A stretch of 64,000 nucleotides of DNA. It comes from Ruegeria meonggei. GTDB lineage: Bacteria; Pseudomonadota; Alphaproteobacteria; Rhodobacterales; Rhodobacteraceae. The DNA lies in contig NZ_FWFP01000015.1 in assembly GCF_900172215.1 (NCBI RefSeq), positions 62,001 through 126,000 of the forward strand, written 5' to 3'. How positions within the stretch are numbered: the first letter of the stretch is position 1; each line of letters starts with the position of its first letter. Positions 52,349 to 58,907 of the stretch are shown piece by piece. The notes beneath the pieces were generated by a model. That model was not told the origin of the DNA and made no database searches. It saw only the letters and a program-made list of their open reading frames with translations. The translations under genes were made by a program, and so were the position numbers.

Positions 52349-52424
52349 GCCCCTATAGCTCAGCTGGTAGAGCAACTGATTTGTAATCAGTAGGTCCGCG
52401 GTTCGAGTCCGTGTGGGGGCACCA
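52349..52424 (+). tRNA. tRNA-Thr (TGT)
   Basis: Acceptor GCCCCTA pairs with TGGGGGC, D arm GCTC/GAGC, anticodon stem ACTGA/TCAGT with loop TTTGTAA giving anticodon TGT, T arm CGCGG-TTCGAGT-CCGTG, encoded CCA. Its 3' end is the left attachment site of the mini-element that follows. Confidence 0.97.
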
Positions 52425-52426
52425 TA
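52408..52426 (+). repeat. attL: 19-bp direct repeat in tRNA-Thr 3' end
   Basis: TCCGTGTGGGGGCACCATA, covering part of the T arm, acceptor strand and CCA, plus two following bases. Confidence 0.85.
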
Positions 52427-52461
52427 AATCATTTAAAATCAAGCACTTACGAGAAAATTAC

Positions 52462-52481
52462 TGACGTATGGTGACGTATGG
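52462..52481 (+). repeat. Two tandem TGACGTATGG copies (left arm sites)
   Basis: TGACGTATGG occurs twice head-to-tail, 36 bp inside attL. The same 10-mer recurs near attR, as expected for integrase arm-type binding sites. Confidence 0.6.
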
Positions 52482-52874
52482 CGCGAAGCTACCTTGCGGA
52501 TTCGAACCGGCGCACCATTGTTTTTGAATCTGCCATAATATCTATCCACAAGTTCAGCCGGGGTCTCGTCGCCTTCTTTGGAACAAGAGTTTCTGACAAC
52601 TCAATCGGCGTCTCGCAAAGTTGTGGTGAGAGGCCACAGAGCTGCCGTTCGCTGCAAGTGCGACATTGTAAGCCACTAACGGCAGGTGTGTGCAAACAAT
52701 GACCATTGCAAAGCCTAAGGGAACTTCCCACGCCTGCCGTCCGCTCACGCTCTTGATGCTTCGGGGCGTTCCATTATTCCTGCCGTTCATGCATCGTGCA
52801 GCAACTAGTTCGGGTGTGCTCCGCGAGGCGACGGATTTGGGGTTTCAAGCCGCGAAGCTGCATGGCCGCATTCG
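52482..52874. other. Non-coding left part of the mini-element
   Basis: About 390 bp without a credible gene. A minus-strand stretch at 52496-52516 (GGTTCGAATCC core) looks like a tRNA T-arm remnant. The rest is unassigned; the AIPR gene ends at its right side. Confidence 0.5.
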
Positions 52875-54608
52875 TCATACGCTGGCAGTTGTTGTTCTAC
52901 GGCTCACCGAAAGCCGCTTCACTTCTTCGACCAAAGGTCGCGATTTAGCGCTGTCTCTTTCAAGCTCTAGTCCAAGATTATTTAGCGCCTCTTTAACGAT
53001 TGTGACGCACTCATCGAAAACATCTTTTGAGTTTTGCTGATCGGCGAGTTGTTCAAGGAGCTTGTTGCAGTATGCTTCGCACTTTTTGCTCTTTGCACCT
53101 GGAAAACTTTGATCTTCGTAGCGACAGCGAAAGGCTAGCAGAATATAAAACTTAAAAGGGCGAATTCCACGCTCTGCAATGTCTAAGCGACGAATGGCGA
53201 TCTCGAACCTGTAAGCCGCAAATGCCGCAGTGTAGTATGCATCTGGGCGGTGATCATTTTGGAACACCCGCTCCGAATTGTTTTTCAGTAGTGTGCCTTG
53301 GTAGCGACCTGCTTGGTTCGGAACGTCACAAAACATGGATGCATAGTTCTTCAACTGCATGCCTTTTGTTACGATTCTGCCTTTCTCAATACCATCGGAT
53401 CGCGCAAACTGTTTGCCTCTACGTTCATAGAACAACCGAAAGTCGCCATTTTTGGCAGCGTAGAAGTCTTCTAGATCGTGTTGGAATGGCGTGAATGCGA
53501 GCAGATCATTTTCGTCGACTTGTGTTTGCTTATTGGTAGACTTGATAATGGCTTGCGCCACATCTTCATCTTCTGTGTGAATGAGCTTGATTGGCACATG
53601 TAAATCGCCAGTAACTACGGAACGGTTTTCAAAAATCACGTGACTAGTTTGGCAGCCATTCACAATCTGATAATCTTCCAGTAGGTATTGGCTCGAGGTC
53701 GGCCTGATACTTTTTGCGACAATCGTAATGCCATTGTTCCTTAGGACGAATTGATCCAGGTCGCCATCTTGGATTGTTTTTGCAATGTCTGTATTCACAG
53801 GGTTGACGCCTTGAAAATCACGTACGTTGTCCACGAACACCGTGCGCAACATGTCTCCGTCCTCGTCTTCTAGCAACTTCAAAAACTCGGAAGCTGGCAA
53901 GATACCCAAATACGCAGCCTCAACTCCCCGTATTACGGGCAAGGTGACTAAACTATCGATTTTGACAGTTCGGGAGATGCTGGTCTTGGTCTGCCGATAC
54001 AGTTTTTGCAATTCTCGAGCACCAAGAGGTTCAAAGGAAACTTCGGAAAAAAGGTTAGTGTCTTCGAGCTCTTCCTGCTTTCTCGCAATAATACTTGTAA
54101 TGTAAGGGTCACTTTTCCAAGTGCCCGTACAGGCATAGAAAACACGGCAAACCGGGTTGTCCTTAAGTTTCGCGGCGTTTTGGTACACTCTGTTTTTAAT
54201 TTCGATAAAGCGCTTAATGTCGTCATTTGATGGCAAGCTTTGACAATCTGCAAAGACTTCCTTGACCAGGTTGTCTCCGAGCGCCAGTACAGCCGCACCA
54301 TCAAAGCTACCTGAAGTCTTTGCTTGAAGGATTAGGAACTCGACGTCCATTGCTCCACTCATTGAAAGGATGTCATCTACTACGTCCGCATCAACTACAA
54401 ACCGGCCGTTAATCTTCACAGCAAACGCGTCAACGTTCAAATCGCCGCCATCTCCGCAAACAGTATCAGACGTTTCGATTTCTTCTGGAAATCGTGAGGA
54501 GAAGACGCTGTATGAAGCAAAGTGCTCAAATTGTTTGGATGAATCGCGATTTGTCAGAGAATTACTTTCACAAAAATCTGTAACTAGTGATTGTGTAACT
54601 GGGTCCAT
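52875..54608 (-). CDS. AIPR-family (abortive infection phage resistance) protein with nuclease-like N-terminus
   Basis: 577 residues. The N-terminal ~200 residues contain GDGGDLNVDAFAV (D60) and FLILQAK (Q95-x-K97), the spacing of a PD-(D/E)xK nuclease of the Mrr type. The AIPR domain follows, with FVLRNNGITIVAKSI, YQIVNGCQTSHVIFEN, IIKSTNKQTQVDENDLLAFTPFQ and LFYERRGKQF. AIPR proteins come from phage-exclusion loci of lactococci and other bacteria. Here it is the main cargo of the tRNA-Thr mini-element, oriented toward the tRNA. Codon use is more AT-rich than the chromosome. Confidence 0.85.
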   Translation of the reverse strand: MDPVTQSLVTDFCESNSLTNRDSSKQFEHFASYSVFSSRFPEEIETSDTVCGDGGDLNVDAFAVKINGRFVVDADVVDDILSMSGAMDVEFLILQAKTSGSFDGAAVLALGDNLVKEVFADCQSLPSNDDIKRFIEIKNRVYQNAAKLKDNPVCRVFYACTGTWKSDPYITSIIARKQEELEDTNLFSEVSFEPLGARELQKLYRQTKTSISRTVKIDSLVTLPVIRGVEAAYLGILPASEFLKLLEDEDGDMLRTVFVDNVRDFQGVNPVNTDIAKTIQDGDLDQFVLRNNGITIVAKSIRPTSSQYLLEDYQIVNGCQTSHVIFENRSVVTGDLHVPIKLIHTEDEDVAQAIIKSTNKQTQVDENDLLAFTPFQHDLEDFYAAKNGDFRLFYERRGKQFARSDGIEKGRIVTKGMQLKNYASMFCDVPNQAGRYQGTLLKNNSERVFQNDHRPDAYYTAAFAAYRFEIAIRRLDIAERGIRPFKFYILLAFRCRYEDQSFPGAKSKKCEAYCNKLLEQLADQQNSKDVFDECVTIVKEALNNLGLELERDSAKSRPLVEEVKRLSVSRRTTTASV

Positions 54609-55045
54609 AGACTATTGCTTTCAGCTTTTAGTTGTATGGGGTGTTCGTAGCACCACTGTGGTTTGGTTGGCTAGAGATTCGTCGTAGTTCAAAGGATCCA
54701 AGTTCGGCTTCAGAACAGCAGTGCAACGCAATCGCACCCGCAGCGAACTTCTGGTTCCCTCCCGAAGTGCGGGAACGCCAAGGTCGGCAATCTGCTGTTA
54801 CGCGGCCTAATGCACCCGCAGCTACCAGACCAGTCGGGAATGGCGGCTAAGGGCTCAAACCACCTGTCCGAACTTACCGCAGAGAAAGTCGGCAGCGAGC
54901 CCAGACTACCGCTTGCTGCTTGGGGCTCCAACGGCAGCTATGGAGAAAAAAGCTACCACTGGTCTCATCGGAAACTGCCTCAAACTATGTCTACCAACTT
55001 TATCGAAGACTCCGTTCAACTTCTCCATAGCTGAGGACATTTCCT
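54609..55045. other. Non-coding gap between the two mini-element genes
   Basis: 437 bp containing only short unconvincing frames. It must hold the promoter of the AIPR gene on the minus strand; no clear elements were identified. Segments such as GCGGGAACGCCAAGGTCGGC resemble intergenic repeat debris. Confidence 0.45.
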
Positions 55046-55624
55046 CTAATATGAAATGGGCACTCCCGCAGACTTCAGTTCCACAGTCCATACATCAATT
55101 GCCTCTTCACAAATCTTGTGAAAATGGCCCAGCTTGTTACCAGCTTCATCGACCACGTCAGCCATTAGCACTACGCCGCCACCTCTGATCGTAGTTCCAT
55201 CCTTTTCAACGTCGGTGGTGATATTGCCTCCCATTTGGAACGCATTTCCAATGATTTCAATATGCGGCGTCACTCCGGATCGAGGGGGGCGGTTTAGAGT
55301 TTCATGCTTATCTATATTCCAAAGGTCATGGATCAACGCGACGCTTTGATTATTGTTGATTACGTCTTCAACAAGGCTTTCTTTCTGTCCGTTCGACTTA
55401 CACCAAGATTTAAAATAATCTTTGATCGAAGCGACATTCGAAACAGCTCGCTGCAGTGTGTCCATTTGCTCCACCTCATTTGCATTCCTGTTAAAGTCAA
55501 CACCAAATGAGAATGGGGTTTTAACAACATAGTCATCGATGTTGTCGGGAGTCACATCCTTCGGGGCGACAACGCCTAGGGCGATGTACAGTCTCTTTAT
55601 TTTTAGATCGAACTGAGGGGTCAT
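55046..55624 (-). CDS. Unrecognised 192-residue protein, cargo of the mini-element
   Basis: 192 residues from ATG 55624 (MTPQFDLKIKRLYIALG); a TTG 18 bases upstream is less likely. Mostly helical N-terminus, then LIHDLWNIDKHETLNRPPRSG, a D/N-x-K-H pattern seen in some HEPN-like or DUF proteins of defence loci, and a beta-rich C-terminus (IRGGGVVLMADVVDEAGNKLG). Same strand as the AIPR gene and upstream of it, so it may be its partner. No family assigned. Confidence 0.65.
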   Translation of the reverse strand: MTPQFDLKIKRLYIALGVVAPKDVTPDNIDDYVVKTPFSFGVDFNRNANEVEQMDTLQRAVSNVASIKDYFKSWCKSNGQKESLVEDVINNNQSVALIHDLWNIDKHETLNRPPRSGVTPHIEIIGNAFQMGGNITTDVEKDGTTIRGGGVVLMADVVDEAGNKLGHFHKICEEAIDVWTVELKSAGVPISY

Positions 55625-56103
55625 GGCAACGACGAGTTCCAAAAATCCTGTTTAAACTGTGCACTATGCAATAGTAAACGATCAGGCAAAGCAACTCTCG
55701 CCTTCAGTGCACAACACATGCCCGCGTCGTGTTCAAAGCGGTCATCGGCTCTCATGCAGTCGGCGGCAGTTTTGTCCGCTCACCTGCCATTTGGCCCTGG
55801 TTCTGAGGGTTCGGAATGTGCGGTTCGCGGCCTGCTGCGTGAGCGAAAGACAGGAGCGTGATCAACGGCTGCTCAGGGCTCTTAGCTGACTCCTTGTATC
55901 CAAGTTACATTGATGCCGTGTTGGATCAGTTTGATTAAATTCTTGCCACAGCATTCCATGTGAATTGCTGACCAACGGTCCAGGTTTTAACTCAGATTGA
56001 TATTTTCTAGGAATGACTGAACTTATGTCATACTCTGGTTCCGCAGAGAAAAATTGGAGGAGAATGTTCACGTAGAAACCAGTGTTTTCTAGGAGCAAAA
56101 ATT

Positions 56104-56167
56104 CCATACGTCATGTGAAAAGGAGGGTTCTACCTTTCGGGTGAAAAGACGTATGGATGACGTATGA
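56104..56167. repeat. Right arm-type sites: three TGACGTATGG-like copies
   Basis: Inverted CCATACGTCA at 56104-56113, AGACGTATGG at 56147-56156 and TGACGTATGA at 56158-56167, all within 110 bp of attR. Same 10-mer as the tandem pair beside attL. Confidence 0.6.
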
Positions 56168-56212
56168 GGCGATCAATAGACTAATAAGATATTGATTTTG
56201 TTGCATTTTGAT

Positions 56213-56231
56213 TCCGTGTGGGGGCACCATA
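56213..56231 (+). repeat. attR: second copy of the 19-bp tRNA-Thr end
   Basis: TCCGTGTGGGGGCACCATA, identical to 52408-52426, outside any tRNA. Confidence 0.85.
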
Positions 56232-56682
56232 CTCCTAAGTAGATTCAAAATCCTGATGCGAGCTATGATTTCGGACACAACCTCCTGTTTTTTGACATTT
56301 ACAAACTGCTTCATGCGCATCGCCGCCGTCGCTGAGGCCTAGCGCTGCACCAGCAGCGAAGGTCTTGGTGGTCCTCTTTCAATTTGATTCCTACTTCTGT
56401 TTGTCCTGGAAATCGTGCCAAATTGTCCGGAAGCTTTCGCCGCGCTACATTTTTCAATGCCGCAGTCGCCAAGGCTTACCGGCGGCAAACAGACAGTGGC
56501 TCCGTTCTACCTGAGACATTTTTCTTTGTTCTGCTCAGAAACACGTGGAGTTGGCGTTCAGGCCAGTACAACCGGCCTCTTCCTGAAATTTTATTTCACC
56601 TGGGCGCCATAAATCGAAATATAATGACAGGATTGGCGCGATCGTCTAAATGTTCACTTTATAAAAAGTAGACAACGTCTCG

Positions 56683-58575
56683 GTGAATTCTGTGGAACAA
56701 GTGGCCTTTACCTTCGAGATGGGAGTGGTTTGCGCTCTGTTGGCCTTCACCGTTTTTCTCTTTGTCTCGGAAATTGTAAGAATTGATCTGTCTGCCATTT
56801 TGGTTCTGGTTATTGTCGGTCTTCTCAGCTACGCGCCGGGGCTTGAGAACCTTGCAGATGTTACGAAACTCTTCGATGGTTTTGCGTCAAACGCCGTGAT
56901 TTCCATCATTGCTGTCATGATCGTCGGTGCAGGTTTGGACAAAACCGGCATCATGAACAAGGTCGCGGCAGTCATTTTGAAATATGGTGGCACAGCCGAA
57001 AGCCGGGTGTTGCCAATCGTTTCGGGGACAGTCGGGGTTATCTCCTCCTTCATGCAGAATGTGGGGGCCGCCGCTTTGTTTCTTCCGGTCGTTAGCCGCA
57101 TCTCTTCAAGGTCTGGAATTCCACTGTCGCGATTGCTGATGCCAATGGGGTTTTGTGCCATCCTGGGCGGAACAATGACAATGGTGGGGTCATCGCCCCT
57201 GATACTGCTGAATGACTTGATTCTAACGGCAAACGATGGCCTGCCCGAAGGTCAAAAAATTCCACCGTTTGGTCTGTTCTCGGTGACGCCAATCGGGGCC
57301 GCCTTGATCCTGACCGGGATCGCGTATTTCCTTCTGCTTGGCCGTTGGGTGCTGCCGGGCGGCATCGGGTCAGACAATACCGGTACCGGGCACGGCACCC
57401 AAGACTACCTGAAGCGGGTGTATGGGCTAAAGGCCGATGTATTTGAGGTGATCGTGCCAGCCGAAAGCCCGCTGGTTGGGCAGGTCCTGGCCGATATCAA
57501 CCACGAAAACCATCTGTACATCATCTCGACATTCTATCGCGGGAAAACCTCGATGGTTCAGGTCTTGACGGCCGAGATTGCCGCACCCTGTCGGCTTGCG
57601 ATCATCGGGCGGCGCTGGGTTGTTGAAGAATTCGCTCAGAAATTCGGGCTGACGGTTCTTCCAGAGCTGGATATCTTTGTCGAAGAGTTCGCCCCCACAA
57701 ATGCCGGAATTGCCGAGGTTGTTGTGACACCCGATAGTAAGCTGATCGGAAAGTGCCCTCGCGAGCTTTTGTTTCGCAAGACATATGGGATGTCATTGCT
57801 TGCCATTCACCGAGGCGAAGAAACGCTCAGCCACGTGGAATCCGATACACATGAGTCTACCCAGATCGGGCTCGAAAAATTCAACGCTGGTGACATGCTG
57901 GTTGCCCATACCAGATGGGACAACCTGATGCGGATCAAACGGGATCCGGACTTTGTTGTCGTTACAACGGATTTTCCGCAGGATGAGTTGCGGCCGCAAA
58001 AAGTCGGGTGGGCGCTAGGCTTTTTCGCAATTTCCTTGTCGCTGATTTTGTTCACAGACGTGCGCTTGTCACTTTGCCTTTTGACCGGAGCGGCTGGAAT
58101 GATGCTTGCCCGTGTACTCAGCGTGGATGAGGCCTACCGCGCCGTTGGGTGGAACACTGTTTTCCTGCTTGCTTGCCTCATACCGCTGGGACAAGCCGTG
58201 CAGAACACTGGAACAGCGGCGTGGATTGCCCAACAGATTATGGTCATTCTGGACGGTTGGCCGATTTGGGCGCTTCAGGCTGGCGTCGCGATACTTGCCA
58301 CCGCTTTTTCATTGGTGATGTCAAATGTCGGCGCCACTGTATTGCTTGTGCCACTTGCCGTATCGATTGCGGTTGCGGCGGGCGGAAGCCCTGCGGTCTT
58401 TGCACTCACCGTGGCCATTTCAACCTCAAACAGCTTCATCATTCCAACACATCAGGTGAATGCACTGATCATGGGCCCTGCGGGCTATAAGGTTATGGAC
58501 TTTGTGCGGTCGGGTGGGGTCATGACAATTCTGTTTTTGGTGGTCTCGCTTGGGATGCTCAACTTGATTTACTGA
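56683..58575 (+). CDS. SLC13-family sodium/anion permease with TrkA-C domains
   Basis: 630 residues from GTG 56683; no strong ribosome site, and internal starts are possible. N- and C-terminal membrane halves (about 6+6 helices, with SSFMQNVGAAALFLPVV and SNVGATVLLVPLAVSIA as the paired motifs) flank two cytosolic TrkA-C/RCK_C domains at about residues 245-430 (FEVIVPAESPLVGQVLADIN; IAEVVVTPDSKLIGKCPREL). The family carries sulfate, dicarboxylates or related anions; substrate not predictable. First gene right of the mini-element. Confidence 0.88.
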   Translation: MNSVEQVAFTFEMGVVCALLAFTVFLFVSEIVRIDLSAILVLVIVGLLSYAPGLENLADVTKLFDGFASNAVISIIAVMIVGAGLDKTGIMNKVAAVILKYGGTAESRVLPIVSGTVGVISSFMQNVGAAALFLPVVSRISSRSGIPLSRLLMPMGFCAILGGTMTMVGSSPLILLNDLILTANDGLPEGQKIPPFGLFSVTPIGAALILTGIAYFLLLGRWVLPGGIGSDNTGTGHGTQDYLKRVYGLKADVFEVIVPAESPLVGQVLADINHENHLYIISTFYRGKTSMVQVLTAEIAAPCRLAIIGRRWVVEEFAQKFGLTVLPELDIFVEEFAPTNAGIAEVVVTPDSKLIGKCPRELLFRKTYGMSLLAIHRGEETLSHVESDTHESTQIGLEKFNAGDMLVAHTRWDNLMRIKRDPDFVVVTTDFPQDELRPQKVGWALGFFAISLSLILFTDVRLSLCLLTGAAGMMLARVLSVDEAYRAVGWNTVFLLACLIPLGQAVQNTGTAAWIAQQIMVILDGWPIWALQAGVAILATAFSLVMSNVGATVLLVPLAVSIAVAAGGSPAVFALTVAISTSNSFIIPTHQVNALIMGPAGYKVMDFVRSGGVMTILFLVVSLGMLNLIY

Positions 58576-58907
58576 GCCGCGTGTATCCAGCAAATACTGG
58601 ATTCCTAAAAACCCGTTGTCATCGTGAGTTTCTTGATTTGGGGCGAAGACAGTTTCAATTGGCCGCGATCCACGCTGCATGTGCTTTACTGCGTGCATCG
58701 GTGCAAAGCGAGGCTACCGAATTGCGGGTTCCTTGATGGTTGAATGATCCGACGTTTCGACCGAAGCCTAACTTCCTGAACGAGGAGAATTGCAAGGGTT
58801 ACAGCCCCGTGCTCTGGTCTGCACACAGCCATCCTTGCGAAGGTCAACATACAGCCTTTTCAATCAGTTTCGTTGGCATTAAGAGTTTCAGACATCACCA
58901 GAGAAAT
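58576..58907. other. Intergenic region between SLC13 gene and tRNA-Leu
   Basis: 332 bp. I see no gene and no clear terminator; the tRNA promoter should lie in the last ~60 bp. Confidence 0.5.

Follow-up and report, generated by a model that had tools for sequence, protein, structure and literature searches.

An integrase-less islet with lambda-type attachment-site ends at tRNA-Thr in Ruegeria meonggei, and its possible mobilisation by a borrowed integrase

The islet at tRNA-Thr and its cargo

A 64-kb stretch of the Ruegeria meonggei genome (contig NZ_FWFP01000015.1, positions 62,001 to 126,000; hereafter the window, with positions counted from its first letter) carries an intact tRNA-Thr(TGT) gene (52349..52424, + strand, identified with ARAGORN), which is the integration target of a small islet without a detectable integrase gene. 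The left copy of the attachment core, a 25-bp direct repeat running from the T-loop to the 3' end of the tRNA plus TA (52402..52426, +), recurs at the right border (56207..56231, +) with 23 of 25 bases matching, the two copies being spaced by 3805 bp. This repeat includes an exact 19-mer at 56213-56231, made of 17 tRNA bases plus TA, which confirms the recurrence of the last 19 bp of the tRNA-Thr region reported in the initial annotation of this DNA. With up to 2 mismatches allowed, no place in the 4.54-Mb assembly other than these two has the core (reversed-pattern control: 1).

Both ends of the islet display the anatomy of a recombination site. An exact match to WATCAANNNNTTR, which we take to be the consensus for integration host factor (IHF), lies between the left core and the arms (52437..52449, +) and another between the right arms and the core (56185..56197, −). 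These are the only two exact matches in the window, one per element end, with ~0.003 expected per 60 bp. Further inside, the 8-bp arm-type site GACGTATG is present as two direct exact copies on the left (52463-52470 and 52473-52480, +), two direct exact copies on the right (56148-56155 and 56159-56166, +) and one inverted exact copy (56105..56112, −). All five matches of the window fall inside the element, 1.04 being expected, and five were reached in 0 of 100 shuffles; among 54 genomes of the genus, the GACGTATG arm pair is confined to this islet. Lambda-type attachment sites (att), once split by integration, consist of a core accompanied by IHF sites and arm repeats, and the core copies of the window's islet are indeed accompanied by both. 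Site-specific integration, as initially proposed, is thus well supported by the intact tRNA, the displaced 3' end, the IHF-like sites and the matching arms at both ends. Two other features were considered by eye. An integrase start within the left end was dropped on inspection, and the right-end inverted repeat, considered as a hairpin or origin of transfer, is perfect only in one related islet (G023, described below), so that a protein-binding site seems likelier. The element has a GC content of 47.5%, against mostly 0.55-0.62 (55-62%) in the 1-kb bins of the window. The description of this DNA as lower in GC than the chromosome therefore holds, but further dips occur at ~27-32 kb and 49-61 kb, so that low GC by itself is not peculiar to the element.

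Two recognisable genes are encoded, as already noted in the initial annotation. The first (52875..54608, −) specifies a 577-aa AIPR/AbiU-type protein, matching Pfam PF10592 over residues 259-542 (E 7e-45), the PADLOC AbiU model over residues 3-565 of 577, i.e., near full-length (E 2.7e-124), and phrog_1841 of PHROGs (E 2.6e-74). According to these matches, this cargo likely acts in phage defence. One named homologue was found in GTDB contigs, in Thalassococcus profundi (Roseobacteraceae; L017 10001-11727), with 80% identity. It ends early, in two tblastn pieces, and is apparently frameshifted near its end. Compared with it, the AIPR gene is under purifying selection (nonsynonymous divergence dN 0.10, synonymous sites saturated, 537 codons). 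The T. profundi gene stands alone amid housekeeping-type genes (fatty-acid synthesis by eye), with no att core or arms nearby; only the AIPR gene, and not the segment, is therefore shared with that other locus. The second gene (55046..55642, −) specifies a 198-aa protein with nothing above cut-off in Pfam, PADLOC, NCBIfam or PHROGs and no match in plasmids; its fold model was unusable (pLDDT 37.5), and an M-HEAT_ATR match (E 0.0094), below cut-off, was disregarded.

A recombinase inside the segment, which the initial annotation had named as a finding that would tell against it, was not detected. A Pfam scan of 11 of the element's open reading frames (ORFs; 61-577 aa) returned none, and none of its stop-to-stop ORFs of at least 60 aa had a phmmer match at E<0.5 to any of 52 integrase queries. 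An earlier phmmer search with 39 queries had missed two real integrases at other loci of the genus (L051 and L070). No relaxase or phage structural gene was recognised among the annotated ORFs of the element (Pfam, PHROGs), nor was a packaging or transfer function seen in the islet.

Related islets with shared ends and different cargo

The tRNA-Thr flank was searched in the 54 genus genomes and matched in 54 of 54; from the 53 other genomes, the tRNA was taken with at most 18 kb of the sequence that follows it, several contigs ending early. In three other species, integrase-less islets were found at the same tRNA-Thr, with lengths of 6036 bp (genome G020), 2422 bp (G023) and 2844 bp (G030). 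Att repeats are present in all three, and their non-coding ends align with those of the window, at the left terminus (52420..52520, +; alignment A2; blastn 62-67% over 92-298 bp) and at the right terminus (56086..56231, +; alignment A1 and end model R1; blastn 68-69% over 149-176 bp). When the four islets were compared with one another by blastn (E<=0.01), likeness was seen at the ends only, over 92-298 bp on the left and 149-429 bp on the right. Exact IHF matches occur on both sides in G023 and on the right side only in G020 and G030.

The interiors are unrelated. The G023 islet encodes an AAA ATPase of 588 aa whose PADLOC matches are OLD-, GajA- and AriA-like. In G030, the cargo consists of a 408-aa protein, HlyD-like by eye with a biotin-lipoyl-like match just below cut-off, and a 121-aa protein; in G020, it comprises a TetR regulator, a metallo-beta-lactamase-fold protein, a 621-aa unknown and a HupE/UreJ-like protein. 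No gene is common to all four cargo sets (blastn and family scans), and phmmer with the same 52 integrase queries revealed no trace of an integrase in any of the four members (E<0.5). Seven weak or misleading G020 and G030 matches had come from a query set containing non-integrase ORFs, the strongest (E 1.8e-12) being HupE to HupE, and none appeared at E<0.5 with the cleaner set. In the R. meonggei genome itself, a P4-like integrase adjoins a HupE-like gene related to this G020 cargo (E 1.8e-12; L008, G000:C20:458307-461735). The view of the element as a minimal satellite with defence cargo can be kept in part: defence-like cargo is carried by two of the four members (window and G023), but in G020 and G030 none of the proteins scanned (3 of 4 and 1 of 2, respectively) matched a PADLOC model, and packaging or transfer functions were not seen.

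End models R1 (right) and R2 (left) were built from the four islets. Across the 54 genomes at E<=10, R1 recovered the four islets at E<=5.5e-32, the far end of an element array in G067 (4.5e-12) and a G016 sequence away from tRNA-Thr (0.0027), the rest being at least 0.13. Under stricter filters, its search of 295 genomes of the taxonomic family returned only the islet's own copy. At E<=5, R2 matched none of 54 other stretches, which include 48 tRNA-Thr regions of other species. These outcomes indicate that the ends belong to the islets and not to the ancestral flank. The same segment at another locus, or devoid of att repeats, would have contradicted the initial annotation; instead, the three end-sharing segments all lie at tRNA-Thr with att repeats.

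The ends of the G020 and G030 islets are 95% (right) and 90% (left) identical, whereas two chromosomal xer-like genes of these genomes show 77.3% and 81.6% nucleotide identity. The clock genes are two chromosomal integrase-family genes taken by eye as xerC and xerD, and they are the sole clock for G030 since its 12 kb upstream could not be aligned at the DNA level. Because the ends are more alike than the chromosomes, they appear to have spread between species. Between the window and G020 the relation is reversed, with ends at 60% and 76%, xer-like genes at 81.3% and 81.9% and ~11 kb upstream at 78.6%. Besides, G020 and G030 share 297 + 429 bp of ends, the 429 bp at 88%, in which no integrase-like sequence was found. 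Hence, their common ancestor probably had no integrase gene next to either att, and the cargo has changed since. In the window's ends, the most diverged of the family, positions within the sites, which were defined on G030 and chosen after the alignment had been seen, are kept in 48 of 54 cases vs 75 of 119 elsewhere (p 2.7e-4; right end alone, p 0.0017).

The tRNA-Thr hotspot and the search for a helper integrase

In the stretches examined, 19 of the 54 tRNA-Thr loci, window counted, hold an element bounded by a second copy of the 3' end. This census left out a doubtful L077 match, a second weak L099 match, G004 (copy on a different contig), the halves of the intron-split genes of L098-L100 and further G067 copies, the first G067 element being counted. 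A full-length integrase is present in 10 elements, a fragment only in 3 and none in 6; among these, the integrases of L051 and L070 and the fragment of L099 were identified by eye, the Pfam match of L051 (E 2.2e-5) being below cut-off. In five of the six integrase-less elements, the two ends have arm-like 8-mers in common (window, p 0.004; G020, 0.004; G030, 0.002; G026, 0.036; G023, 0.096), in a test that misses some elements, as illustrated by two of the ten integrase-bearing ones (L048 and L073) that share none. The sixth, G076 (L068), shares none either and was left out of the family. In five elements (L052, i.e., the second G067 element, L073, L050, L056 and L100), the left end holds an N-terminal fragment (~29-84 aa) of a G067-type integrase, which shows that integrase truncation recurs at this site.

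The G026 islet (L062) is a second lineage of integrase-less islet with AIPR cargo. It spans 2787 bp and holds its own AIPR gene, a 128-aa helix-turn-helix-like ORF, a 46-bp core and arms CTGTGTCC; the 54 genomes contain exactly two pairs of these arms, one at each end of this islet. Empty sites had been suggested as a check. Element-free relatives do exist, since in G032, G009 and G069 conserved chromosomal genes or tRNA-Leu lie within ~0.4 kb downstream of tRNA-Thr, but none shares the right flank of the window. That flank (56232-58830), a CitMHS-type transporter gene with its surroundings, was matched at tRNA-Thr in none of the other genomes examined and may be a further acquired segment. 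Elsewhere at the hotspot, an array of elements follows tRNA-Thr in G067 (L130 and L131), with att-like cores at ~8.8, 11.2 and 26.4 kb, the right end of the last core being the one that matches R1. In G028 (L098 535-864), the tRNA-Thr is split near the anticodon by a 254-bp insert, and inserts of equal length occur in G007 (L099) and G061 (L100). This insert resembles a group I intron, with an RF00028 match (E 5e-7) whose 33.6 bits fall short of the gathering score of 50 (none at the gathering threshold), and ARAGORN reported no tRNA-Thr at L098-L100.

The initial annotation had also proposed looking for the same att and arm repeats beside integrases; with the narrow patterns used, no integrase next to these arms was found in the genus and family genomes searched. 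Integrases using the same tRNA-Thr exist in the genus, with other arms. Three candidates were thereby rejected as helpers: the 471-aa G067 integrase, whose arms differ (AGGTGAC); a P4-like integrase behind the G030 islet, whose arms differ as well (GGGGGTAC, by eye); and an integrase of the own genome (G000:C20:459807), whose tRNA-Thr relatives in G003, G034 and G073 have other arms. Five arm-pair matches outside the islets in the genus equal the reversed-pattern control (5), and none has an integrase or a tRNA-Thr core in its 3-kb locus. Neither end model located a helper, the G030 right end had no match in phage or plasmid collections, and searching IMG/VR with the G067 integrase yielded no helper. 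IMG/VR matches at L145, L146 and L148 were runs of short repeats and not att sites. The helper scans were exact or nearly exact, and a helper may escape such scans.

Mobilisation in trans and its alternatives

In our view, the islet somewhat more probably than otherwise belongs to a family of small non-autonomous cassettes that the integrase of another element mobilises in trans. Of a lambda-type tyrosine-integrase system, each islet would retain just the cis-acting components, i.e., the core at the T-loop and 3' end of tRNA-Thr, the IHF bend sites and the arm-type integrase sites, and these would enclose cargo that can be exchanged. An integrase of the same arm specificity, supplied by a plasmid, phage or island elsewhere in the cell, would bind the arms; the islet would then be excised as a circle and inserted at the tRNA-Thr of a new host, the tRNA being left intact. 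The initial annotation had left the choice between mobilisation in trans and a deletion remnant undecided. The balance now leans toward the former, because there is a family whose members share ends but differ in cargo, the ends do not follow the chromosomes and the sites are conserved.

The serious rival is that the islets are independent deletion remnants of unsampled autonomous tRNA-Thr islands, resembling cis-mobilizable elements (CIMEs), in which the integrase gene would have been lost so recently that the ends persist, and any movement would occur by accretion with an incoming island at most. Indeed, the tRNA-Thr locus makes relics, as illustrated by the fragment-only elements (3 of 19) and the G067-type fragments, and the G020 and G030 islets stand in tandem with integrase or integrase-fragment DNA. 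Such an origin nevertheless seems less likely to us: phmmer showed no integrase trace in the four members, G020 and G030 share 297 + 429 bp of integrase-less ends around unrelated cargo, and in the window's islet, the most diverged member, sites are conserved above spacers. Much less probable is a swap of cargo by homologous recombination between ends or flanks after one ancient insertion, in the absence of integrase activity. All four islets do lie at one locus and G020 and G030 have 429 bp at 88% in common, but the ends in the window are short and match the others at only 62-69% over 92-298 bp, the conserved parts are the core, IHF and arm sites, and the R2 left end is absent from the 54 other stretches, so that the ends are not ancestral flank. 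Finally, an autonomous islet with a divergent or unknown-type recombinase inside, e.g., the 198-aa protein, is highly improbable: that protein does lack a known family and the 39-query search did overlook two real integrases, but lambda-type integrases are generally longer than 198 aa and, by blastn and family scans, the four cargo sets have no gene in common.

Several points weigh against mobilisation in trans. With the narrow patterns used, an integrase beside these arm motifs was not found in the own genome, the 54 genus genomes, 394 genomes of the taxonomic family (nearly all one per genus) or IMG/VR. Mobility is read from sequence. Decay is common at tRNA-Thr, with integrase fragments at five element ends and a fragment only in three delimited elements, and very divergent integrases can escape phmmer searches, as L051 and L070 show. 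The exact pre-insertion site of the window was not found, since at the loci searched blastn matched nothing to 56232-58830. Evidence from shared 8-mers is weak for G023 (p 0.096), the left ends of G020 and G030 have no exact IHF match, and site conservation at the left end by itself gives p 0.08, with sites chosen after the alignment was seen. Moreover, only four family members are available, all at one locus in one genus.

Among known systems, CIMEs come closest. As described in PMC5704250, they keep attL and attR, have no integration or transfer genes and are found in tandem with other elements. Likewise, the window's islet retains attL and attR, with core repeats, IHF and arm sites at both ends, and has no detected integrase, nor a relaxase or phage structural gene among its annotated ORFs. 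It differs in that the four islets share ends, carry unrelated cargo and show signs of interspecies spread. CIMEs derive from integrative and conjugative or integrative and mobilizable elements (ICEs or IMEs); here, no integrase trace was found in the islet, and no parent element with R1 in the genus and family genomes or with the arm patterns in the 394 family genomes. Like miniature inverted-repeat transposable elements (MITEs) and clusters of attC sites lacking integron-integrases (CALINs), as described in PMC11389934, the islets would be non-autonomous DNA that has only recombination sites and depends on the enzyme of another element for its movement. Instead of transposon repeats or integron attC, they use a lambda-type att at a tRNA gene, an anatomy of another kind than the attC hairpin sites of integron cassettes and CALINs. 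Phage-inducible chromosomal minimalist islands (PICMIs; PMC10803314) and the intY islands moved by a jumbo phage (PMC12595487) are similar in their small size, defence cargo, conserved sites (tmRNA, fis) and helper-dependent transfer; both encode an integrase and AlpA, and PICMI also a primase, none of which was detected in the islet. More generally, phage satellites (phage-inducible chromosomal islands, P4, PICMI) have their own integrase plus a regulator or primase and are packaged by a helper phage, and IMEs have their own recombinase along with a relaxase or oriT; no integrase or other recombinase, regulator or primase was found in the window's islet. As to its cargo, the 577-aa protein would fit AbiU/AIPR proteins by its PADLOC match, while its 198-aa neighbour has no known relative. 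No such islet family was met in a literature search, from which subscription journals mostly fell outside.

Beyond mobilisation as such, the islets could represent a dedicated class of integrase-parasitic cassettes, with ~100 + 150 bp of conserved ends, interchangeable cargo (defence, export-like, metabolic), arms co-evolving with the helper integrase and interspecies spread without a recombinase of their own, a proposal that we put forward only tentatively. If true, such a class would be the tRNA-site counterpart of MITEs and CALINs, the G026 islet being its second lineage. Since integrase-based island finders would miss such islets, small defence or metabolic cassettes at tRNA genes may be under-counted. 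With its short, delimited ends, this islet family makes it possible to test whether islands without an integrase are dead remnants or are still moved by enzymes borrowed from other elements.

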